A stretch of DNA of 64,000 nt. Source: Anaerolineae bacterium. Its GTDB lineage: Bacteria; Chloroflexota; Anaerolineae; Fen-1058. Below, one piece after another: positions 30,349 to 55,407 of the stretch (position 1 is the stretch's first letter; each line of letters opens with the position of its first letter). Below the pieces are notes generated by a model. The model ran no database searches. It saw nothing but the letters and a program-made list of their open reading frames with translations, and had not been told where the DNA came from. Both the position numbers and the translations under genes were made by a program. The stretch spans positions 54,787 through 118,786 of the forward strand of contig PMCF01000433.1 in assembly GCA_003154115.1 (NCBI GenBank), in the 5' to 3' direction.

Positions 30349-31206
30349 ATGACCCGCAAAGAAACCCTTGAGCGTCACATCCGAGAATCGAGTTTGCTTG
30401 TAGGTGAGTATGAATCCAAGCAACAAACTTCTAACGACCCAAAAGAAAAACTGTCAGCTGGGCGTAGCATCTCTGAGCAGCGTGAACTCTTAGCCGGATA
30501 TTTGTCTGAGTATGCGTCTTTGTGCGCTGCACTGAATTCTGCGATGCCTGCCGATATTGCTGAGATAGGAGCAAGTCTTGGACATTCTTTAGGCCCGTCC
30601 TTGGATAAACAAATTCATCAGGGAGGTAGCAAAGTGAGCGACCGCGTCAAAATACTTGTGATATTTGCCAATCCAAAGGGAAGTGACCACTTGCGGTTGG
30701 ATGAAGAAGATCGCATTATACGTGAATGCTTGGAACGAGCCAAGCATCGCGAGTCCATGCATTATGAAATCCGGCATGCGGTACGAGTAAAGGACCTCCA
30801 GCGTATGTTACTGGAGGATGATTATCAGGTTGTCCATTTTTCCGGGCATGCAACTTCCTCTGGGAAACTTGCTTTAGAAGATGAGGACGGTAATCCAAAA
30901 TTAGTCGCGCCAGGTACGCTGGCGGCCCTTTTGTCCAATTTCAAGTCTATCGAGTGTGTGCTGCTTAACGCCTGTTATTCTGCACAGGCAGGCGGTCCAG
31001 TTTCTTTGGGCATTCCCTTCACAATTGGTATGGAAGGCCCAATTTCAGATGATGCGGCCAAGCACTTCACACGTGGCTTCTACGATGCACTTGGCGCCGG
31101 CAAAGGCTATCAATTTGCGTATAACATGGGCTGCAGCGCTATGGCGCTGGAAGGGTTTGCTGCAGAGGAACTCACTCCACAGTTTATGGAGAAGCAATCG
31201 ACTTAG
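30349..31206 (+). CDS. CHAT-domain (caspase-like) protein with N-terminal helical adaptor-like segment
   Basis: His motif VVHFSGHATSSG and Cys motif VLLNACYSAQ; N-terminal LLVGEYESKQQTSNDPKEKL matches the SUMF1 partner. Confidence 0.88.
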   Translation: MTRKETLERHIRESSLLVGEYESKQQTSNDPKEKLSAGRSISEQRELLAGYLSEYASLCAALNSAMPADIAEIGASLGHSLGPSLDKQIHQGGSKVSDRVKILVIFANPKGSDHLRLDEEDRIIRECLERAKHRESMHYEIRHAVRVKDLQRMLLEDDYQVVHFSGHATSSGKLALEDEDGNPKLVAPGTLAALLSNFKSIECVLLNACYSAQAGGPVSLGIPFTIGMEGPISDDAAKHFTRGFYDALGAGKGYQFAYNMGCSAMALEGFAAEELTPQFMEKQST

Positions 31207-43879: not shown

Positions 43880-45622
43880 GTGCAGACGTTGTCAAATCCT
43901 CGCGCCATTCAACCATCCGGTAGGCTAATCATCCTCCTCGGCCCGCTTGGTACAGGAAGGTTCCAAGCCCTTCTCGCTCTAGCCGGTCTATATCCGTCTT
44001 TCGTGATGGATGACACACTCAAGGCGGTAGCGCAAAATTCAACCTACATCAGCCTCTGCCCGCAGCAGCGCTTGCTATCCAGCCGCCTGACGGTGCGCGA
44101 GAACATGCGGTTGATGGGCGTGCTGCATGGCTTGACTGAGCCTGAGCGCATTGACGAGCTGCTTCAACTAGGCGATCTGTCCGCACAGGCCGATCAACTC
44201 GTTTACCACCTGCCACAACACCTCGGCCGTGTCTTGAATTTATTGGTGGCGCTGCTGCCCCAGCCTGACCTGCTGCTCATCGACGATGTGACACAGGGGT
44301 TAAGCCGGCCCGCCAGCCGCCAGCTCTGCCATATCCTCCATGCGGAACAACGCCGACACCCACGAACGGTTTTATTTGCCACAGCGAGTCTGCAAACGGC
44401 CCAGGCACTCAGTGGTGAAGTCTGGCTATTCGATGGGAAAACGGTTCGTGCTCAATGGCCGCCAGGTACAGCGCCAACAGAGGTACTGAAGACAGCTGCT
44501 TACCGTATCACCTTGAACACCAGCCGCGCCGCAGAAATGTTCTGCGCCGGTCTGGCCACACAACCAGACTTTGTGCGAACGTATCGACAATTAGACGCAC
44601 GCACGGTCCAGGTACTCGTCGATCATCCGTCACGATTGCTGTGGTTGTTGCAACTGGCCGGCCGCGCTTTGCTGGATTTTCAGGCTTTGCCACAAGAAAT
44701 TGACTTGACCCTTATCCAACTATCGATGGGAGATGTGGCTTTACGCCCCAGTTCGCATACCGATAGCGCAATCAATCCCAGTCAACTCTTGCCGCTAGAA
44801 TCGGTAGTGAAGAATCGATCCATGTCGTGGGTAGCAATTGCCCGGCTGGCTCAGGCCGAATGGCAAACCCACTTCCGACAATTCTGGAAAGCGGGCAATG
44901 TGCTTTTCTCCAGTTTGTTGTTATTGTCTTTACTGCTGGTCGCGCTGCAAGTTTTTAGCACAGAACGCTGGATGACCTGGGGACCCATGCTCCTGCTGTT
45001 TTCTTCCGGCATCGGTTTGGGCTTCGCAACTGAGTCGCTAAGCCGCTTGTCTAACGTCGCCGAGGCAGAAACTCTATTTCAATCGGCGCGCTCGATTGGT
45101 CCGGATCGCCCCGGCTCGTTGCTGGCTTTATACGATCTTTCAAAGATTGGGCGGAGAAATGTCCTGCTCGGCTTAATCGGCGGACAATGGCTGATCTTGC
45201 TGAGTCACACGCTTGTTTTTCTCTTGATCTGGGCAAGCGTGCTAACCACTCTGACCACAGATCCAGTATGGCTCACTGCCAGTGTGCTTTACTGGTGGTT
45301 ACTTACACTAGACTCACTGGCAGTAGCCGTCGTCGTAAGCGGTTTGGTTCATCGTCCTGGGTGGGGACGCTGGGCCGGATGGGGCAGTGGCCTTGTGATA
45401 TTGGCCGTGGCAATTCTAATGACCAGTAACCAACCGTTATTGTGGCTGTGGCCTTACACCGGCTTCACCGTTGCCCTGACCCAATTACTGACCGAACCAT
45501 CTAACGCGCTGGCCGCATTTGGAGCAGGGGTGTTAGGAACCATCTTCTTGTGGAGTCTGGCTTTATACTCATTTACCCGGCGGCGATCTGTTTGGCCGCT
45601 GAGCACGAGTGGTGAAAAATGA
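43880..45622 (+). CDS. ABC-ATPase-like protein with degenerate P-loop fused to a membrane domain
   Basis: GPLGTGRFQALLALAG (degenerate Walker A), YHLPQHLGRVLNLLVALLPQPDLLLIDDVTQGLS (degenerate signature, Walker B kept); ~6 hydrophobic segments at the C-terminus. Confidence 0.7.
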   Translation: MQTLSNPRAIQPSGRLIILLGPLGTGRFQALLALAGLYPSFVMDDTLKAVAQNSTYISLCPQQRLLSSRLTVRENMRLMGVLHGLTEPERIDELLQLGDLSAQADQLVYHLPQHLGRVLNLLVALLPQPDLLLIDDVTQGLSRPASRQLCHILHAEQRRHPRTVLFATASLQTAQALSGEVWLFDGKTVRAQWPPGTAPTEVLKTAAYRITLNTSRAAEMFCAGLATQPDFVRTYRQLDARTVQVLVDHPSRLLWLLQLAGRALLDFQALPQEIDLTLIQLSMGDVALRPSSHTDSAINPSQLLPLESVVKNRSMSWVAIARLAQAEWQTHFRQFWKAGNVLFSSLLLLSLLLVALQVFSTERWMTWGPMLLLFSSGIGLGFATESLSRLSNVAEAETLFQSARSIGPDRPGSLLALYDLSKIGRRNVLLGLIGGQWLILLSHTLVFLLIWASVLTTLTTDPVWLTASVLYWWLLTLDSLAVAVVVSGLVHRPGWGRWAGWGSGLVILAVAILMTSNQPLLWLWPYTGFTVALTQLLTEPSNALAAFGAGVLGTIFLWSLALYSFTRRRSVWPLSTSGEK

Positions 45623-47373
45623 GACTTGCCCCGATCCCGGTTAGCCTGCTGTTTCGCCAGCAAATCTCGCACGCTGAAGCGCTCGAAAGTTATCAAATCG
45701 AGGTCGTCAAAGCGCCCGGGCGCGGCTGGGGTGGGCCGCTTACTCCACACGGCTTGGACGACACACAAATCCGGGCTATCAGGACCCTCTATCGTGGCTA
45801 CTTGAAACGGCAGCGCACGGCTACGGGCCTGGCTATATCAGAACAAGAGATTGAGCCGCTGCGCGCAGCGGGTAGTCAACTATTTCGCGCGCTGCCCAAT
45901 ACGATCCAAGATCGACTGCGGCAGGTCCAAGCCCTGGCGTGGCAAACAGGCCAATTGCTGGAGTTGACGCTGATTTTTGAGCCTGGCGCTCAACCGTTGG
46001 CTAGCTTACCCTGGGAACTGCTGCACGATCCCGAACGGCGTTATTTCTTTGCGCTTCACGGCGGACTCATGCGCCAACTTAGATTTTCGACCGCCCCGAA
46101 AATCGATCCAGGCTACGCGCCACACTCAATTTTGGGATTATGGGCCGAACCTGCTAATGTGGAAAATCTATCAATCCGCAAGCAGTTTACTCCTGCACCA
46201 GGCCGCGTGGGTTGGATCACCTGGATTGAGGGATCAGATAGTCTCAACCAACTCGAAGAGCAATTAACAACCGGGCTGTATGACGGCTTGCATATCACTG
46301 CGCATGGGCGCGCCGATGAGAATGGAAGCGATCTGTCTTTAGCCTTTGTCGCCCAAGATGGCAGTCCACTCTGGCTTAGCCCCGATCAGATTGCAACCTT
46401 GATCGCCCAGTATCCAGTGGTGCGTTTTGTATATTTAGATGTCTGCCACAGCGGTGATAGCTTGGATGATTATGCACCAGGGGGGCTAGCCGGCAAGCTG
46501 CTCGGCATGGGCATATCCAGCGTCGTTGTCATGCAAGATGAAATCACGCAAAACGCGGCTGGATTACTCGCGCAAGTTTTCTATCACAACCTGGCGAACC
46601 AAGTGCCTAGCAGTCAGGCAATGACGGCGGCCCGTACTGCTGTTCGTGTTCGCCAAGATGATCCCGCGCACTGGAGCGTTCCAGCGTTCTATAGCCAGGA
46701 AACGCTGCCCGCTGAAAATACCTTGGCCGTAGACAAGGTTCTCGATCGAATTCCGGATCTTCTGCGTCCGCTTAGTCTCTGGCTTTTGATCTTAGCTCTG
46801 TTGATCGGACAACTCTCGTACGCTTTCGCCAATCAGTCAACACTTGCCTCAAACGACATCAAGGGGTACTTGCTGCTCGTAACCGAGAGCATTCTATTGC
46901 CCTTACTGGCCGCCTGCGCGATGTGTCTGGGACAAGATCAAATCGCCGTTAGATACAACCTAAAAGGAAAACAGTGGCTGGAAGTACTCGTGCACAAATA
47001 TACAGCCGCCTTTGTGTGGGGATTCATGGCTTGGGTTGCCATGACAGTGGTGTGGCTAGGTCTGAGCTGGGCAGGGATAACCACACACCTCAGCCCGGGA
47101 ATGAAGCAGATTATCTGGGGAATAGCCCTGGCAGGTTTGGCTGGCGCTGGTTACGTGGGAGCGCGGCAAGCGATTCGACAAAAGATGTTGTTCCTGCGAT
47201 TAGGCCCCTCATCAGTCAAAGCCAGCAATTGGATTTTGTTATTTGGGATTGAGCTACTACCGATAGGTCTGGCCTGGCTGATCGCTCTGGCCTGGCCATT
47301 CCTGGCCTCAACTCTGATTGGCGTTTATCTAGTCATCGCGATGTTGATCGTGGTGATTATCGGCTTGCGCTAA
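45619..47373 (+). CDS. CHAT-domain protein with C-terminal multi-TM region
   Basis: DGLHITAHGRADENG (His), FVYLDVCHSGDSLDD (Cys), then several TMs. ATGA overlap with the preceding gene. Confidence 0.87.
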   Translation: MRLAPIPVSLLFRQQISHAEALESYQIEVVKAPGRGWGGPLTPHGLDDTQIRAIRTLYRGYLKRQRTATGLAISEQEIEPLRAAGSQLFRALPNTIQDRLRQVQALAWQTGQLLELTLIFEPGAQPLASLPWELLHDPERRYFFALHGGLMRQLRFSTAPKIDPGYAPHSILGLWAEPANVENLSIRKQFTPAPGRVGWITWIEGSDSLNQLEEQLTTGLYDGLHITAHGRADENGSDLSLAFVAQDGSPLWLSPDQIATLIAQYPVVRFVYLDVCHSGDSLDDYAPGGLAGKLLGMGISSVVVMQDEITQNAAGLLAQVFYHNLANQVPSSQAMTAARTAVRVRQDDPAHWSVPAFYSQETLPAENTLAVDKVLDRIPDLLRPLSLWLLILALLIGQLSYAFANQSTLASNDIKGYLLLVTESILLPLLAACAMCLGQDQIAVRYNLKGKQWLEVLVHKYTAAFVWGFMAWVAMTVVWLGLSWAGITTHLSPGMKQIIWGIALAGLAGAGYVGARQAIRQKMLFLRLGPSSVKASNWILLFGIELLPIGLAWLIALAWPFLASTLIGVYLVIAMLIVVIIGLR

Positions 47374-47388: not shown

Positions 47389-48057
47389 TTACGCCTGTAC
47401 CTGAATGATGATCTGCACTAACACGGCGATGGGCACATTCTCAAAACGAGCTACCCCAGCCTCATCAGTGGCCATAGTTTGATCGAGATCTTGGGCAACG
47501 ATATGAACTGAACGGCCCGCGACCTGCGCTAGTCCCAACCGATCAACGCGCACCAGGAGTTGGCAATTCAAGTCGGATTGGCGCATGGCTCGTGTCTCAA
47601 TCGTTAAGGGGACAGGTTGTCCAACCCGCTGACTGAAAAGCAGCCATTCCTCGCCCGTGGTTGAGCTCGCCAGTGTGGGCACTTGAGTTGGGGCTGCAAA
47701 ACTTAAGCGCAGCACATACCAAGCCTCTTGTATTTCAGTGGTCGCATTGACGACGCGTCCCCACAAAGCATTGACTTGCTCAAGCAAAGATGGCACCAAG
47801 CCTGTCGTGGACTTGGCGGCTTCAGCACTCTCCGCCATATCCGCCGTCGCTGCCAGCATCAGCTCAACCAGGTCAGCATAGGCTTGCGCGCAGGCAACAC
47901 AGGCTTCGATGTGCTGCAGTTGGGTGAAGTATCGCTGGTCAACTTCTTCGCCGGCTACCTCGGCGCTGGCGATTTCGGCCAACACTTCACTGTCAAGATG
48001 TAGCTCGGTCGACGCTTTCAGCGCTTGCTGCAAAAACGTGATGCCCCGTTGGCTCAC
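47389..48057 (-). CDS. HC2-type zinc-finger (putative anti-sigma) protein
   Basis: HIEACVACAQAYADLVELM (HxxxCxxC); 4-nt overlap with the 48054 gene. Confidence 0.65.
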   Translation of the reverse strand: MSQRGITFLQQALKASTELHLDSEVLAEIASAEVAGEEVDQRYFTQLQHIEACVACAQAYADLVELMLAATADMAESAEAAKSTTGLVPSLLEQVNALWGRVVNATTEIQEAWYVLRLSFAAPTQVPTLASSTTGEEWLLFSQRVGQPVPLTIETRAMRQSDLNCQLLVRVDRLGLAQVAGRSVHIVAQDLDQTMATDEAGVARFENVPIAVLVQIIIQVQA

Positions 48058-48314
48058 AATAGATCCTCGTCCGCCAGAGCGCTGGCTGTCAGATCAGCCA
48101 GCGCTTCGTATTCACTCAGGCAAATCACACAGACATCCAAATGAGAGGCCAAATCGGCATAGATCTGGTCAACGGGGTCCCCCGCTAATTCCGCGCTGAC
48201 AAAGGCTGGCAATTCTATTTGATAGGATACGCAAGTCTTCCTGACAGATGTCACTGCCACAGGAACAGACAGCTGTGTAATGAGTCGTTGAACATTAACG
48301 GAAAGACTTAGCAT
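48054..48314 (-). CDS. Small HC2-type zinc-finger (putative anti-sigma) protein
   Basis: HLDVCVICLSEYEALADL (HxxxCxxC); overlaps the upstream sigma gene. Confidence 0.65.
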   Translation of the reverse strand: MLSLSVNVQRLITQLSVPVAVTSVRKTCVSYQIELPAFVSAELAGDPVDQIYADLASHLDVCVICLSEYEALADLTASALADEDLL

Positions 48315-49165
48315 AGATCTTCTCCGGGTGGTAGGCCCAGGATATCCAGCAACTTCCTATGCGCCTCTGGTGGCAAATGGTGCAAAGTTTGCACGATCCG
48401 CGCTTTGATCATGCGGATCTCGTGAGGTTTTTTGCCTAACAACCGCGCGATCTCTTGTGGACTCAACCCGTTGAGAAAATGCTCCTCCGCCACGCGCAAC
48501 TGCAAGTCAGTCGCCAGGTGGGTTCGGAAGAAATCGCGCAGCTGCTGGCGCACTTGTTCGTTAGCTACATGATCTTCCACACTGCGCTCACTCGTCTCAT
48601 GATCTGAAATATGCTCTTCCCAATCACTCTCGGCCGGGCCAGATTGGCCTGCGCTGATCTCTTCTAATGATAGCTCGAGGCCGTCACCACGCATGACCGC
48701 CGTTCTCCGGCGATGCTCGTCAATCATTTTAGCACGCATGGTTTGCAACGCATATGCCCACAAAGCCCGTGGCGCCTTAAGCGGCGACTGCTCCAGGCGA
48801 GCCTGCAAATCACTTATTGCCAGCTGGACGAGTGAATCCTGCTCGTCGCGATCGGCGGTGAACCGATGGGCCTGTTGTCGAAGCCAGCGGTACAGCTCGG
48901 TCCATGCTTGTTCACACCGATCAGATCCAGGCTGACGGCAATTTTCATGCAAAAAAACAGCGTAACGTTGCCACACCTGAGTTTGTATAGCTTTAACCGC
49001 AGTCGACTCTGATGGCAGTGGCGCAGACAAGTCCTGCCAGATCTGGCTCGCTAATTCAAGTGGATCGGCCAGCTGCCAGCCCTGCGCTGTCAGATATTGC
49101 CGAACACACTGGCAGCAACGAGCGTAATCAAAAGCGAGCGTATCGAGTAAGTCGGACTTCAGCAT
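48308..49165 (-). CDS. Sigma-70-family RNA polymerase sigma factor (ECF-like)
   Basis: Region-2-like ALWAYALQTMRAKMIDEHRRRTA; region-4-like RVAEEHFLNGLSPQEIARLLGKKPHEIRMIKARIVQTLHHL. Confidence 0.8.
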   Translation of the reverse strand: MLKSDLLDTLAFDYARCCQCVRQYLTAQGWQLADPLELASQIWQDLSAPLPSESTAVKAIQTQVWQRYAVFLHENCRQPGSDRCEQAWTELYRWLRQQAHRFTADRDEQDSLVQLAISDLQARLEQSPLKAPRALWAYALQTMRAKMIDEHRRRTAVMRGDGLELSLEEISAGQSGPAESDWEEHISDHETSERSVEDHVANEQVRQQLRDFFRTHLATDLQLRVAEEHFLNGLSPQEIARLLGKKPHEIRMIKARIVQTLHHLPPEAHRKLLDILGLPPGEDLC

Positions 49166-49280
49166 GGGTCAAAAAGAAAGGCAATCGACGATATGACGAT
49201 ATGATTAAGCGTCTCTTTGCGTCTTTTGAAGGTGAACGCGGTGGCCACCAAGTTACACCTTCATCACACCAGGAGACAAC

Positions 49281-49469
49281 ATGTTTCGCAAAAACTTACG
49301 CCGTTGGTTGTTGGCCGGCCTGTTAGCCGCCACGCTGGGCCTGCCGTTTCTGCAGGTTGCCGCCGAGCATTCTACCACTGTAGCCGAAGATGTCACCTCA
49401 CCCCTGTCTGGTGACTGGCACAATCAAGTGGCGGATCAAATTCCAGGTGGCTCGGGTGGTGGCGGGTAA
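49281..49469 (+). CDS. Small predicted secreted peptide (62 aa)
   Basis: SD aggag before ATG; MFRKNLRRWLLAGLLAATLGLPFLQVAA|EHSTTVAEDVTSPLSGDWHNQVADQIPGGSGGGG, signal-peptide-like. Confidence 0.55.
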   Translation: MFRKNLRRWLLAGLLAATLGLPFLQVAAEHSTTVAEDVTSPLSGDWHNQVADQIPGGSGGGG

Positions 49470-49536
49470 TTAACCTCCGGTCACCTTCTAAGAAGATCAC
49501 GACATCCGCTCGGAAAACACAATGATCACTTGCTGA

Positions 49537-52500
49537 CTACGCCGCTCCCTCACATCCAAAGCTCCCCCAGTGCGCCATGCCCGCCTTCTTCCGGTGCGCG
49601 GCGCGCTGGGCCAGGGCCAATGCTGTGGCCGGGTCTTCACCAGCGACGACGTGCCGATAAAAATCCTGCATCAACTCGGCGGCATCTTCATCCAGTACCG
49701 GCCACAGACTGCCGACAACATGCTGCGCGCCGGCCGCGAGGCACGTTGTCGGCAGTCCGATTAGCTCATCACCTTCATAGATCAGCGCCTGGGTGCCGCT
49801 GCACGCGGACAGCGTGATCAACTCTGGCAATGGCGCCAGCTGCTCCAGCTGATCGAGCCACAGGTCTTGATCGTGCAGGGCGATGCCGCTCAGCCGCCCG
49901 GTGCTGGCATCATGGGAAGCGTGGCTGGCGATGTGTAGAAAGCGAAACGAGGGCCATTCAGGTTCGTTGCGTAAGGCTTGCCAGTTGGCCCAGGTTGCCT
50001 TCTCATCGAGCAGCTGCCGACTACCCGGCTCCCACAACGCTAGCAGCTGCTCGATCTCTACCGTCACTTGCGGTAAGGCGGCTCGGTGCAGGCCAAAATC
50101 CGAGACGCCTATCGCCAGACCAATTGGGCGACGTGGTTCACTCGGGCACGGGCGTAGCCAGAGTTGTTGCAGACTGTGCAGCGATAGCACGCTGCCGGGG
50201 ATGCCGCATTCCATCAGCGGTTGCTGTGACGTCGGCTCGATCAATGCCGCCCACGGTACTTGATGCAGCTGGCGATGCGGTGCGATCAATATCGACGTAG
50301 CGGGCGTTATACGCGCTCCCAGCGTCGCCGGCAGCAACCAGTGACCCAGCTGCGCCAGATCGACTGTTGTAGGCCACCGACCGTTCTTCGCTGTTTTGGT
50401 GCACTGTTCTAACGCAAAATGAAATGAAGCGGTCAGGGGCCGCGTCTCAATCGTGCATTCGTTAGCTGTCACGCTGAGGCAGTACAGATGTGAGGTCGTC
50501 AAATAATAATCGAGCGCAAGCCAGCGGTCGCCCAACCGCTGAGTTGCCAGCTGGACGAAGGTGGCCAGATCGAACTCAGCGCGCAAGGCTGGCGTGTTTT
50601 GATCGGATCGGGCGGTCCGTTCCCATCTTTCGCGCTGCGCCGCATACTGTTGAGTCTTACGCCGCAGCTGTACCAGCCGCTCACGCTCTTCGGCTGAACC
50701 TAGACGCCGCGTCGCACCGAAACTCTCCCGTACCTGATCGCGCAACCAGCGCAGTTCGGCCTCCAATTGTTGCAGTTCGGCGTTGTCGGTCAACGTTGGC
50801 GAAACACTCCGTTGCGCGATCTGCGCTTTGTGGGCTTCGATAAAATACGCCGCCTCGTATGGATTATGGTAGCGCGCGGCCACGGCGACGGCCTGTTCCA
50901 GCAGTGGGGCAGGCCGTTGCAGAAAAGTTCCGGTCAAAGTCGGCTGCGAAAAATTCTGGCGCAGCTGCGCCAGGGCCGTCGTCATACGACGATAAGCGCC
51001 TAGCGCCACTGTATCGTTCTGATCCGCTTCGGCCAGCTGCGCTAATCCGGCCCAGGCCAGCCAATCGGTTTCAGGCATCCCGTCCCGGTTGAGAGCGAGC
51101 GCTTGTTCCCAGACCGTGCGTGCGTGGGAATAGTCCGCTATTTGAAAATAACCACGTCCCAAAGCGGCCAGACAAATGGCTTGCTCCAGTTGCATCTCCG
51201 CACAACCGGCCACTGCCTTTTTCAAATACTCCACCGCTTCGGTGGAACGATCTAGCGCGCACAAGGCCTCACCGAGCAAGCGCTGTGCCAGGACAATTTG
51301 CGTGGTCACGCCCTGTTGCTGTGCCAGATCCAGAGCCTGTTGCAAATACCCTAACGCTTCAACGCCCCGCTGTTCATAGAAGAGCGATCGGGCACGTAAG
51401 TTGTAAACGGTGGCGAGATAGATGGGCTGTTGCGCTTGCTCGTAATAGTGGGTGGCTTGATCGAGGTAAGCGTGGGCCGTGGGAAAGCGGCCAAGGTACT
51501 GCCATAACAGTGCCAAGAATATCGCACATTCGGCCCCCCGATCGTATCGGTGCAGCTGTTCGAACTGTGTCTGCGCGCGTTCGATGTGATGCAGCGCCTC
51601 TTGATAACGTCCCAGTTGGCTAAGCGCTTCTCCCCGGTAGAGTGCTGCGATGGCGGGCATCAGCAGCGATCCGGTGCGTTGATACAATATTTCTGCTTCG
51701 CTGAAGTTTTGCAGACTGCGGGTTTCGTGGCCCAGTCGCAAATGCAGCTTGCCGGAGTTCACCAGATAATCGGCATACAGCACATCCGGGCGTTGGACGG
51801 CAAAGATGATGTCAGCATGGTCAAAAGCGCGCGCGGCCTCACTCAATCGGCCGGTGTCGTAGTAAATCTGAGCCAAGCCGGTGTGACACTGCACGGCTAA
51901 CAGGGGCAGATCGGTCTGTTCAAAGAGGTGCAGTGCCTGCTGAAAATGATCGATCGCGATGTCGGGGTTATCCGTGGAGTACTGTTCGGCAAAGGCCAAT
52001 TGCAACAAGGCCCGGCCGCTTTCCACGGGCGCCGACAGACTGTTCAACAGCTGCAACGCGCGTTCCAGCTCCGCGCGTGCCGCGAGCATGTCACCTTGCT
52101 GCCGCAGGTTACGCCCCCGATAGATCACGCAGCGTGCGACTTGCACGGCGTCACCCAGCGCGGCGAAGTCTTGTTCGCTGCGCGCGATGTTCTCGGCGGC
52201 GGGCGCAGTTTGCGAGGCGAGGATTTGAGCGTAGGCCAACGCCAGGCGGCAGTGCGGCACAAACTCGTCAAAGTGGTATTTTATCAAGTGATCGAGCGCG
52301 TGGTTGAGTTCGGCGCTGGCCTGCGTGAAGTTGCGCACCCAGATGAGTTCGTTGAGCTGCCACTCGCAGGCGGCCAGCCAACCCGGTTCGTTCAACTCGA
52401 TAAAGGCTTCACGCGCACGCTGCAAGGCACTCGCCACGCGATCGGGCCGTACCCAACCAGTGGCCGCGCGGCCCAGTTGCCAGGCCGCGCGGGCGTGGAG

Positions 52501-52734
52501 AAATCGATCGGTGGTGTGACCGGCAGCCGCATCCAGCAGCGCCGCCAACGCCCAACCATAGCGTGGTCGCGCATAGGCCGCCCGCCGGGATTGCTCGCCG
52601 AGGTGATCGAGCAAGACTTGATCTAGCCGGGGCAGGGGCGCAGTCAGCGCGTGAAGGTCAGATTCAAGATCGGGTTGAAGATAGAGTTTTTCGACCAGTG
52701 CCAGGTAGGCCGAAATAGCCGGTGTATCAGCCAT
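49537..52734 (-). CDS. TPR-CHAT protein
   Basis: Long TPR array (e.g. ALYRGEALSQLGRYQEALHHIERAQTQFEQL), then CHAT: FRFLHIASHASHDAS (His), LITLSACSGTQ (Cys), GLPTTCLAAGAQHVVGSLWPV. Start at MADTPAIS (52734) preferred over 52788. Confidence 0.92.
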   Translation of the reverse strand: MADTPAISAYLALVEKLYLQPDLESDLHALTAPLPRLDQVLLDHLGEQSRRAAYARPRYGWALAALLDAAAGHTTDRFLHARAAWQLGRAATGWVRPDRVASALQRAREAFIELNEPGWLAACEWQLNELIWVRNFTQASAELNHALDHLIKYHFDEFVPHCRLALAYAQILASQTAPAAENIARSEQDFAALGDAVQVARCVIYRGRNLRQQGDMLAARAELERALQLLNSLSAPVESGRALLQLAFAEQYSTDNPDIAIDHFQQALHLFEQTDLPLLAVQCHTGLAQIYYDTGRLSEAARAFDHADIIFAVQRPDVLYADYLVNSGKLHLRLGHETRSLQNFSEAEILYQRTGSLLMPAIAALYRGEALSQLGRYQEALHHIERAQTQFEQLHRYDRGAECAIFLALLWQYLGRFPTAHAYLDQATHYYEQAQQPIYLATVYNLRARSLFYEQRGVEALGYLQQALDLAQQQGVTTQIVLAQRLLGEALCALDRSTEAVEYLKKAVAGCAEMQLEQAICLAALGRGYFQIADYSHARTVWEQALALNRDGMPETDWLAWAGLAQLAEADQNDTVALGAYRRMTTALAQLRQNFSQPTLTGTFLQRPAPLLEQAVAVAARYHNPYEAAYFIEAHKAQIAQRSVSPTLTDNAELQQLEAELRWLRDQVRESFGATRRLGSAEERERLVQLRRKTQQYAAQRERWERTARSDQNTPALRAEFDLATFVQLATQRLGDRWLALDYYLTTSHLYCLSVTANECTIETRPLTASFHFALEQCTKTAKNGRWPTTVDLAQLGHWLLPATLGARITPATSILIAPHRQLHQVPWAALIEPTSQQPLMECGIPGSVLSLHSLQQLWLRPCPSEPRRPIGLAIGVSDFGLHRAALPQVTVEIEQLLALWEPGSRQLLDEKATWANWQALRNEPEWPSFRFLHIASHASHDASTGRLSGIALHDQDLWLDQLEQLAPLPELITLSACSGTQALIYEGDELIGLPTTCLAAGAQHVVGSLWPVLDEDAAELMQDFYRHVVAGEDPATALALAQRAAHRKKAGMAHWGSFGCEGAA

Positions 52735-52745
52735 TGAGGTCAACG

Positions 52746-53639
52746 TCAAACGAGTTCCAGAGTGAGTTGCAAGTCGGCCATGAAGCACTGTCGGGTTTCA
52801 TCCCACACCAGGTTGAGGGGAATGGCTGCAAAGTCCACGCGTCCGCGCTGCGAGATTATCGCTAGGGCGCGATACGAGCCCCACTCGACATTGGCGCGCA
52901 GATCAGGCAGGTCAACAGATTGTTCCGGTTGGGAAGCCGGACCGACTTTGAGTTGCAGGTGCAGCGTCTCAGCGGCTTCTGTGCGCCAGACGGCCTCCAG
53001 CACAATCGACAGCGGCTGTTGATTCATTTCTACTTCGCTGCGCAAGAGCGTGAACCAGGTGTCGTCCAGGCCGGGCTCCGAGCGATAAGCGCCTGCAACC
53101 TGCGGTGTGGCCGGGAAAAAGATCGCGTGAAGTTGATCGGCCGTTTGACGCCAGGTGGCGCGCCAGTTGGCGTGCCACCTGGCAGGCGAGGGGGGCTGCG
53201 TCGCAGACGACGTCCGGGCCTGTTTCTGCAGAAACGACAGATCGGGCGCGGGTACGTTGTGAAAAGGCTGCACGGTCGATTCCAGGGCTTCGCGCAATAG
53301 CTGATAGGAGAACTGGCAGCGCGCGCAGGTTTGCAGATGGGTCTGTAAATAGGGGGGCAGCGGCGCTGGATCGAGGCCGTTGAGTTCATCGTCGACGATA
53401 CGATCGAGGATGGCCTCAACCTCCGCGCAGGCGGCCGCTAGGCCGGCTGGTGAAGGCGCATCATCCGGCAAGTCAGCCTCGCTGGCCGTTTCAATATCTT
53501 CGGCCAGCCGCCGGAAGCGCTCGGGCCAGGGCGCGATTTCCCGCAGGCGCAAGCGCAGCTCGTCAAGGGGGGCAAGGCGAGAATCGTCAGTCATGTTGCT
53601 CTTATTTAGATAATGCGATTTGCCGTTCAAGTCTTTCAC
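52746..53639 (-). CDS. HC2-type zinc-finger (putative anti-sigma) protein with C-terminal beta-rich domain
   Basis: YLQTHLQTCARCQFSYQLLREAL (HxxxCxxC); 4-nt overlap with the sigma gene. Confidence 0.7.
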   Translation of the reverse strand: MKDLNGKSHYLNKSNMTDDSRLAPLDELRLRLREIAPWPERFRRLAEDIETASEADLPDDAPSPAGLAAACAEVEAILDRIVDDELNGLDPAPLPPYLQTHLQTCARCQFSYQLLREALESTVQPFHNVPAPDLSFLQKQARTSSATQPPSPARWHANWRATWRQTADQLHAIFFPATPQVAGAYRSEPGLDDTWFTLLRSEVEMNQQPLSIVLEAVWRTEAAETLHLQLKVGPASQPEQSVDLPDLRANVEWGSYRALAIISQRGRVDFAAIPLNLVWDETRQCFMADLQLTLELV

Positions 53640-54460
53640 TTGGCGAGCACTTTCTTGAGGCGCTGCAAGGCGCGGTGCTTCAGGTTGTAAACCGCCTGCG
53701 GACTTTTGCCCAGACGCCGCGCCACTTCGTCTTCCGAACGATCGTAAAAGTATACTTCAATAATAACACGCTGCTGAGTTTCACTGGGTAGTTGAGCAAT
53801 GGCGGCCAGCAGCCAGTCCTGCACTTCCGCCTGCGCAAACGGATCGGCGGTCGGATCAGCGAGCAGCTCATGCAAAGAGAAGGAGTCCGAGTCGGCTGAG
53901 GTGGTCAGCGCTCGATCGAGCGACTGGAGCTCTGGCGCGCGTTCCAGAACATCATGCGAGCGCTGGTAATGCTGCAAGATTTTGTTTTTGAGGATTACCG
54001 TCGCCCAGGCGTCGAAGGCCACATCGTAAGGAAACACTTCGCGGAAAATCGTTTCGCAGGTTTCCTGCGCGAAGTCGAGCGCTTCGCGCATGTTGGGCGC
54101 GGTGTGATTCAGGCGCTGCAAGATGCGGCCGGCCCGCTGCGTGAGCCGCTCAAACAAACCGCCCCAGGTCGGTTCATGGCGCTCAGCCAGCGGCTGCACC
54201 CGGTTATATTCCAGCAATACCACGCGAATTACCCGATCGATATACGCCAGGCGAGTTCTGGCTGTCAGCGGATAAGCGACGATGCGGTCGAGGCGGCCCG
54301 ACTCGGCATTGCGTCCCACGATCTCGCGCACCAACCGGCTCAAGGCCGCACGAGATAAACCAAGAGAGGCTAAGTCGTCGTTGGTAACCAGTTCTTTGAC
54401 ACGGTCACGGCATTGAGTGTGGAGATCGGGTAAATGGGTGGGCATGCTGATTGAATTCAC
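53636..54460 (-). CDS. Sigma-70-family RNA polymerase sigma factor (ECF-like)
   Basis: Region 2 FDAWATVILKNKILQHYQRS; region 4 QLPSETQQRVIIEVYFYDRSEDEVARRLGKSPQAVYNLKHRALQRLKKVL. Confidence 0.85.
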   Translation of the reverse strand: MNSISMPTHLPDLHTQCRDRVKELVTNDDLASLGLSRAALSRLVREIVGRNAESGRLDRIVAYPLTARTRLAYIDRVIRVVLLEYNRVQPLAERHEPTWGGLFERLTQRAGRILQRLNHTAPNMREALDFAQETCETIFREVFPYDVAFDAWATVILKNKILQHYQRSHDVLERAPELQSLDRALTTSADSDSFSLHELLADPTADPFAQAEVQDWLLAAIAQLPSETQQRVIIEVYFYDRSEDEVARRLGKSPQAVYNLKHRALQRLKKVLAK

Positions 54461-54618
54461 GGAAGTTAGGAACCGCGACTACTTTATCATGTGCCGGGTA
54501 ATGTGGCAAACGAGGCAAACTGTCGCGTTCGGCTTGCCATCGAGCGGATGTGGAAGTTTGCCAAGAGGTAGTGCTGTAGGTTAAGCGCGTCGGAAGATTA
54601 GCGCATGATCGACATTTG

Positions 54619-54843
54619 CTAGAGCAGATCGTCGAAGTAGAGCGAGGCAGGTTTACCGTTAGCGTCCACGCTGCGCCACCGATCGGCTTCTTCACGCGGC
54701 ATGAACGTCCGCCCGATTTCCTGCGCGTAGTACAGGATGCAGGCTTGCACGGTTTTGTGTTCCCCAGGGTTAGGTACGGAGAACTCGGAATCTTCGGATC
54801 TCGTTCGAGTCTCTAAATCCAGATCGGAGCGGGCATAAGCCAA
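54619..54843 (-). pseudogene. hsdR: Type I restriction (HsdR-like) N-terminal remnant
   Basis: NPGEHKTVQACILYYAQEIGRTFMPREEADRWR resembles an HsdR N-terminus; truncated. Confidence 0.5.
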
Positions 54844-54919
54844 TCAGCGTTCAGCTTCAGGCGTGTTCATAGCTTTGGTGTACGCGTTGAAGAAGTTGGA
54901 AAAATGTTGCGAGACGTCG

Positions 54920-55228
54920 TCAACTGCTGGCCGATCTTGTCGGCCAGTGTGCGGATGATCGATCAGACGGGGTCATCAGGATTGGCTGGAGTGGAATGTA
55001 GAAGCGCACCAATTTCTTATCGCGCGCGATGAGTTTGAACGCTTTCGCGCGTCCACCGACTTCTTGTGCGATGCGATTGATTTCGTCATCGAAGACATCG
55101 CACAGGCGCTTGGCGAAGACCAACGGCAGGATGTAATCCTTGTACTTGGGCGCGTCCTTCGCACCGCGGATGGAGCAGGCCGCATCCCACAGCCATTGTT
55201 CGATCGATTTGTCGGTGTTGTTGGGCAT
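54920..55228 (-). pseudogene. hsdM: Type I methyltransferase HsdM N-terminal remnant
   Basis: MPNNTDKSIEQWLWDAACSIRGAKDAPKYKDYILPLVFAKRLCDVFDDEINRIAQEVGGR...KLVRFYIPLQP, then frameshift and truncation. Confidence 0.85.
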
Positions 55229-55407
55229 AGAGTTCCTGATGAATGATGAATCACGACAGAGGTAGAGCAATTGTAAGGTCAAAGGGCTGGGGGAGCAAGT
55301 GATAGAGAGTGTCGGCGGGTGCGGAGGCAGTGAAACTTGTAGTGTTGTAACACTGTTCGATCAATGTCCGCCTGCTGATGCTATAATCGCTGCTATTCCA
55401 CTTACTT

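Follow-up and report, generated by a model that had tools for sequence, protein, structure and literature searches.

A conserved sigma factor, HC2-type protein and TPR-CHAT protease cassette in Anaerolineae, and a small secreted peptide gene linked to it

The DNA analyzed here, called the window below, is a 64,000-nucleotide stretch of contig PMCF01000433.1 from an Anaerolineae-class assembly (GCA_003154115.1; 7.7 Mb in 460 contigs, with 16 CHAT matches). Its minus strand carries a cassette of three co-directional genes separated by short gaps, which encode a sigma factor (sig1), an HxxxCxxC protein (HC2-1), and a protease composed of tetratricopeptide repeats (TPR) and a CHAT domain (TPR-CHAT). 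All three genes are present in the order given by the original prediction, which was made from these nucleotides without database searches. Along the minus strand, the sigma stop at 53636 is followed by the likely HC2-1 ATG at 53594, the HC2-1 stop at 52746, and the likely CHAT ATG at 52734. A 4-nt overlap between the first two genes had also been described; it exists if HC2-1 starts at the GTG at 53639 and is lost with the in-frame ATG at 53594, which is the likelier start, as nothing in the relatives aligns with the additional residues. For the CHAT gene, the ATG at 52734, 11 nt past the HC2-1 stop, is the more likely start, and the catalytic positions below are counted from it. The features of the cassette are as follows.

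54481–54509, minus strand: housekeeping-type promoter-like site TTGCCA-17-TAAAGT, 5′ of sig1 (consensus match only)
53636–54460, minus strand: sig1, extracytoplasmic function (ECF)-like sigma factor, 274 aa, with an N-terminal extension of ~90 aa; an alternative ATG lies near 54445
53274–53594, minus strand: HC2-1 N-terminal helical anti-sigma-like domain with HxxxCxxC (open reading frame from 53639, likely ATG at 53594)
53163–53273, minus strand: HC2-1 linker, residues 108–144, low-confidence or disordered and variable in relatives; proposed site of CHAT action
52746–53162, minus strand: HC2-1 C-terminal β-sandwich, the domain on which CHAT is proposed to dock; its clade B counterparts are CarboxypepD_reg-like
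49537–52788, minus strand: TPR-CHAT protease, 1065 aa from the ATG at 52734 (family scan, alignment, and model)
49921–49923, minus strand: codon of His938 (HIASH), predicted catalytic, invariant in 32 sequences
49801–49803, minus strand: codon of Cys978 (LSAC), predicted catalytic, invariant in 32 sequences

Relatives were searched for with each protein and then by profile searches of 396 genomes of the class, and approximately 120 loci, some of them fetched through an HC2 match, were read with home-made hidden Markov models (labels L and G denote loci and genomes). Sigma and HC2 genes lie upstream on the same strand in 46 of the 63 TPR-CHAT genes that have at least 1.9 kb of upstream sequence. 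When loci were chosen by CHAT score alone, both genes were directly upstream in 28 of 37 usable cases, and among loci of the phylum outside the class HC2 was directly upstream of CHAT in 25/26, with a partial sigma gene within the short flanks of 16/26. The conservation of the trio across Chloroflexota, on which the original prediction depended, is borne out by these counts, and it rules out a chance neighborhood, which was rejected for this reason. In the source genome only this one of the 16 CHAT matches sits in a sigma-HC2 operon; thus, the linkage belongs to this CHAT subfamily and not to CHAT proteins at large. Genomes with a CHAT-less sig1-HC2 pair can carry a related CHAT gene elsewhere (G118, G216, G357, G387, G180, G132, and G183), and in six CHAT-less pairs (L097–L102) the HC2 protein is short (75–109 aa) and lacks the β domain. 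At one locus of G015 (L094, G015:C22), the cassette CHAT was found reduced to fragments; a full-length CHAT gene closely similar to it is present by itself on a second contig (L095, G015:C54).

The sig1 product matched TIGR02937 at 63 bits (cut-off 42.9) and contains the sigma r2 and r4 domains; one relative was returned when the contigs of the genome were scanned with it. Sites of the TTGCCA-17-TAAAGT type are no commoner in the region than expected by chance. The CHAT protein matched PF12770 at 138 bits and TPR_12 at 70 bits. Its His (in HIASHASHD) and Cys (in LSACSG), whose retention had been pointed out beforehand, are invariant in the alignment of 32 homologues. A confident model was obtained for the protein (predicted local distance difference test, pLDDT, 90.7; predicted TM-score, pTM, 0.87), in which His938 and Cys978 follow two CHAT-domain strands, the placement seen in clan CD peptidases. 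Foldseek grouped this model with separase and with Csx29 of Craspase (8eey_B, E 4.4e-14; TM-score 0.51–0.59 by Csx29 length), and a phmmer search of the PDB with the CHAT domain alone found nothing. The TPR profile matched many TPR proteins, including RapF, RapH, RapI, RapJ, and NprR, and kinesin light chain and LGN scored better; the matches to Rap and NprR permit peptide sensing without singling it out. Phage or plasmid relatives of the window proteins were absent or distant.

In a maximum-likelihood tree built from 76 CHAT regions, a clade of 40 rows (clade B) was set off with a support of 100/100, and the remaining 36 constitute clade A, to which the window belongs. The CHAT protein of clade A is approximately 1080 aa long, whereas that of clade B is approximately 950 aa, gives matches starting near profile position 155, and is accompanied by a plain ECF sigma factor. 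A secreted S8 subtilase gene adjoins 27/40 clade B loci and 0/36 of clade A (Fisher 8e-11). With a relaxed detector, a small secreted peptide gene was found at 19/36 clade A and 0/38 clade B loci (Fisher 4e-8), and none was found by it at the other 17 clade A loci. The division into two CHAT clades, each with a secreted partner that the other lacks (subtilase or small peptide), is new here.

HC2-1 carries HLQTCARC, which is the HxxxCxxC motif that had been described. No match was obtained when the window protein was scanned against Pfam and NCBIfam, and its HC2 family was recognized through relatives: 10 of 23 clade B relatives match zf-HC2, 11 of the 23 match a CarboxypepD_reg-like model, and the HC2-1 family is homologous over most of its length to the clade B HC2 plus CarboxypepD_reg proteins by profile-profile comparison (hhalign 95%, E 3.6e-8). 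The model of HC2-1 (pLDDT 82.8) consists of helices over residues 1–107, a low-confidence linker, and a confident β-sandwich over residues 145–282. N-terminal helices with HxxxCxxC, encoded by a gene adjoining a sigma gene, are the features of class I (HC2/ZAS-like) anti-sigma factors, and HC2-1 is likely the anti-sigma factor of the cassette, a soluble protein of two domains. The zinc ligands are gone in L189–L193, L198, L206–L210, and several clade B members, all of which keep the sigma factor, the helical part, and the β domain, and most of which keep CHAT as well. Because ligands were lost in many HC2 relatives, the finger is dispensable and was rejected as the central feature. In many HC2-1 proteins of clade A, the anti-sigma domain is followed by the short motif P-x-L-S-F-L (approximately 53220–53250 in the window), which also occurs at the C-terminal end of several HC2-2a proteins, described below.

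Position 49281, the lower end of the region in the original prediction, is the first base of a conserved small open reading frame on the plus strand that was left unnamed there. Its features are as follows.

49281–49469, plus strand: gene of the small secreted peptide (62 aa, with a signal peptide and the tail PGGSGGGG); it faces the CHAT gene tail-to-tail at 68 nt and is divergent from sig2
49201–49280, plus strand: leader of the peptide gene, with a hairpin that pairs the Shine-Dalgarno sequence GGAGAC (z −3.5, by folding)

Genes of this type lie on the opposite strand in the gap that follows the CHAT gene, encode 35–73 aa with a signal peptide, and nearly always have an ATG and a strong Shine-Dalgarno sequence. 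The C-termini are mostly rich in Gly and Cys (CPGSGC, CPGGDC, CHGGGC, and GGNCGGG; PGGSGGGG in the window). A strict detector, whose criteria were fixed after the first cases were known and applied uniformly, gave 17 matches on 1.04 Mb of fetched loci, of which 16 are tail-to-tail with a CHAT gene at 46–183 nt. The dN/dS ratio was 0.15–0.40 in seven homologous pairs and 0.57 in one, which suggests that the peptide genes are translated and selected. For the shortest peptides, a cut after the AxA site, located by eye, would leave 8–10 residues, and the remainder DAFDPPWG is identical in L092 and L093 despite their different signal peptides. Comparison of the peptide families with Pfam and NCBIfam gave no convincing match. 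A peptide of the same type was also observed at L214:12886-13089, approximately 3.4 kb from a sig1-HC2 pair without an adjoining CHAT gene.

The leaders of the peptide genes are more strongly folded than their shuffles: the mean z is −2.5 (n = 19), compared with −0.3 in a set of 72 other genes from these loci (p 1e-6). Pairing of the Shine-Dalgarno sequence with an upstream strand is also more frequent than in the other genes (0.73 versus 0.49, p 5e-4). These p-values are somewhat optimistic because some loci are related. De novo motif search upstream of the peptides gave TGTAAtgTt-N13-16-CGTCCTtTc with a score of 156, compared with 131 ± 3 for shuffled sequences that were run with fewer random starts. 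This motif is hard to read as a promoter, since its second half doubles as the pairing strand of the Shine-Dalgarno sequence. TGTAA(T/G)G is located at −57 to −83 in several loci, at a near-fixed distance from the pairing strand, and may represent a −10 element or the site of a regulator. The peptide with its hidden ribosome site is a new part of the cassette in the window clade, and it may be a ligand of the TPR array, a sigma-controlled product, or a membrane-active effector.

The locus extends beyond the trio, since a second sigma unit and a membrane CHAT gene belong to it. These genes and an adjoining one are as follows.

48308–49165, minus strand: sig2, second ECF-like sigma factor (family scan, locus comparison)
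48054–48314, minus strand: HC2-2a, short HC2-like protein (home-made models, locus comparison)
47389–48057, minus strand: HC2-2b, HC2-like, with a C-terminal part that resembles the β domain by eye (home-made models, locus comparison)
45619–47373, plus strand: membrane CHAT protein, convergent with HC2-2b
43880–45622, plus strand: ATP-binding cassette (ABC) ATPase-membrane protein, whose gene shares 4 nt with the membrane CHAT gene (family scan; linkage to the locus seen in the window only)

The order sig2-HC2a-HC2b is found after CHAT in the window, as well as in L092, L093, L094, L190, L191, L193, L197, L203, and L204; L088 has sig2 with one HC2 gene, and L186 and L202 have sig2 alone at a contig end. 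The convergent membrane CHAT gene is found by HC2b in the window and in L190, L191, and L193. Just 5′ of the operon (54460–55282, minus strand) is a remnant of HsdM of type I restriction-modification, which is broken after approximately 100 residues. On the other side, 8912–43859 adjoins the locus as a long co-directional run that includes Ser/Thr kinase-like, FHA-, sulfatase-modifying-factor-, and CHAT-like (30349–31206) genes, of which the kinds except CHAT were assigned by eye.

Our reading is that these genes form a cytoplasmic signaling cassette, with a soluble anti-sigma factor as the link by which a caspase-like protease would control the sigma factor. We consider the chances of this proposition evenly balanced. 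From the gene linkage, domain layout, invariant His and Cys, and Csx29-like fold, we infer sigma binding, docking, cleavage, and sensing, together with a role for the peptide, whose linkage, coding selection, and hairpin were described above. The N-terminal HC2/anti-sigma domain of HC2-1 would keep the sigma factor inactive, and its C-terminal β-sandwich would dock on the TPR-CHAT protein. A signal reaching the long TPR array would then cause CHAT to cut the disordered linker, or otherwise to disable HC2-1, by which the sigma factor would be freed. In the window clade, the small secreted peptide, with its translation gated by the hidden ribosome site, would take part in the circuit as signal or output. 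The reading is favored by the trio order kept throughout the phylum, by the related CHAT genes elsewhere in genomes whose sig1-HC2 pair has none beside it, by the missing β domain of the HC2 proteins in L097–L102, and by a two-domain layout like that of Csx30. The following observations weigh against it. The β-sandwich has weak similarity to TRAF-like domains among solved folds (E 4e-3). Other sig1-HC2 pairs with a β domain have no adjoining CHAT gene, so that this domain is not exclusive to CHAT neighbors. A shared alternative-sigma motif was looked for by eye in the sig1 leaders and none was seen, so that no regulon is visible.

The last observation also bears on a different arrangement, in which the protease is an output and HC2 is not its substrate. 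Sigma and HC2 would be the sensors of the signal and would increase expression of the protease, with the peptide or subtilase, and the protease would target proteins other than HC2, for instance during programmed death or remodeling. The distal position of CHAT in the operon, the effector-like look of the adjoining secreted subtilase and peptide genes, and the occurrence of sig1-HC2 pairs without CHAT speak for such an output role. However, the leaders of the sig1 operons look, by eye, housekeeping-driven and not autoregulated, and autoregulation by the sigma factor was rejected as their upstream regions share no alternative-sigma motif; furthermore, the β domain and linker of HC2 are closer to a protease partner than to a sensor, and zinc sensing is gone in many members. 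We consider this arrangement unlikely. A peptide-gated circuit is a more doubtful proposal, in which the TPR array would sense the Gly/Cys-tailed peptide as a signal passed between cells or one of export status and so bring about anti-sigma cleavage and sigma release, with the subtilase of the sister clade in the place of the peptide; if true, it would be a CRISPR-independent counterpart of Craspase in which a peptide replaces the target RNA. It is very unlikely that TPR-CHAT controls HC2 stoichiometrically, as an anti-anti-sigma factor bound to the β domain, with proteolysis serving another purpose: TPR arrays do bind proteins and peptides and the genes share one operon, but the invariance of His and Cys in every aligned homologue indicates that catalysis is under selection. 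Least probable is a redox- or zinc-responsive ZAS-type HC2 that releases the sigma factor unaided, with CHAT linked yet mechanistically separate, since whole lineages without zinc ligands keep the sigma factor and β domain and mostly CHAT too, although HxxxCxxC is present in the window HC2-1 and soluble ZAS anti-sigma factors answering oxidative stress are described in a review (PMC8999054).

Multicellular-type bacteria have an abundance of CHAT proteases, and for most of those outside the CRISPR and gasdermin systems no substrate is known. With a conserved operon that holds both a CHAT protease and a candidate substrate of anti-sigma type, this question becomes directly testable; a new component, the linked peptide and its hidden ribosome site, is testable too.

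Proteolytic control of a sigma factor through HC2-1 can be compared with several known systems. In RRNPP systems (Rap/NprR/PlcR), a TPR array is encoded beside a short secreted-peptide gene, and the output is a phosphatase or DNA-binding domain. The same adjacency of a short secreted peptide gene and a TPR receptor-like gene occurs at the 19 clade A loci above, and the TPR profile matches Rap and NprR; the output of the candidate receptor here is a protease, however, and the TPR match is not specific. CalpL-CalpT-CalpS, a protease, anti-sigma, and sigma factor of type III CRISPR, follows a similar logic of a soluble, protease-controlled anti-sigma/sigma pair, whereas its protease is CRISPR-linked and of Lon type with a SAVED sensor of cyclic oligoadenylate.

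In Craspase, Csx30 restrains CASP-sigma (PMC10028731) and is cut at differing, non-conserved sites, with its C-terminal part docking (PMC11106740). The present cassette shares the TPR-CHAT fold with predicted catalytic His and Cys, and has a two-domain candidate substrate adjoining an ECF sigma gene; like Csx30, HC2-1 has a sigma-side domain, a variable linker, and a conserved C-terminal domain, the last being the likely docking part. It differs in having no linked gRAMP or array and an HC2-type anti-sigma candidate without a match to a Csx30 model. The parallel with Craspase that had been drawn, as one without CRISPR, holds for the fold and does not extend to the protease family: the window CHAT scored 15.5 bits against the Csx29 family (NF041237, cut-off 300), and membership in Csx29/Craspase was rejected on this sub-cut-off score and the absence of linkage to gRAMP or an array. 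No CRISPR-like array was found in the window, as had been noted. A full-length Cas7-11i gRAMP of subtype III-I (NF049957, 1660 bits, cut-off 800) was observed on contig C363 of the same assembly (L268, L302:8529-11771, minus strand), and the 13.5 kb read there lack a repeat array as well as any gene for a CHAT, sigma, HC2, or subtilase protein. The idea of protease-sigma control in the original prediction is plausible, with Craspase membership excluded and a related ECF54 context already known, and the cassette suggests that Craspase may have recruited an older protease/anti-sigma/sigma logic.

In the ECF54 context, as outlined in the accounts of Huang et al. (2015) and Casas-Pastor et al. (2021), reviewed in PMC8999054, an ECF sigma gene lies beside CHAT, subtilase, and 'carboxypeptidase' genes, and proteolytic control was already proposed; ECF54 is listed in that review without an anti-sigma factor. 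Apart from this ECF54 remark, our literature searches returned no paper on a sigma-HC2-TPR-CHAT operon. By gene composition, clade B looks like this context, having an ECF sigma factor, CHAT, subtilase, and 'carboxypeptidase', and an actinobacterial locus (L305, Nonomuraea) has S8, an ECF sigma factor, a matching β-domain protein (E 2.9e-10), and CHAT on the other strand. At the cassette loci the CHAT gene likewise adjoins the sigma gene, and HC2-1 is a carboxypeptidase-regulatory-like protein through its homology to the clade B proteins. The window clade differs by another sigma type, a second sigma unit, and a secreted peptide replacing the subtilase, which is absent from its operon. A further difference is that the 'carboxypeptidase' partner here is a fused HC2 and CarboxypepD_reg-like protein and a candidate anti-sigma factor. 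It is proposed here for the first time that the 'carboxypeptidase' of ECF54 is probably the anti-sigma factor listed as absent, for which the cassette supplies a candidate.

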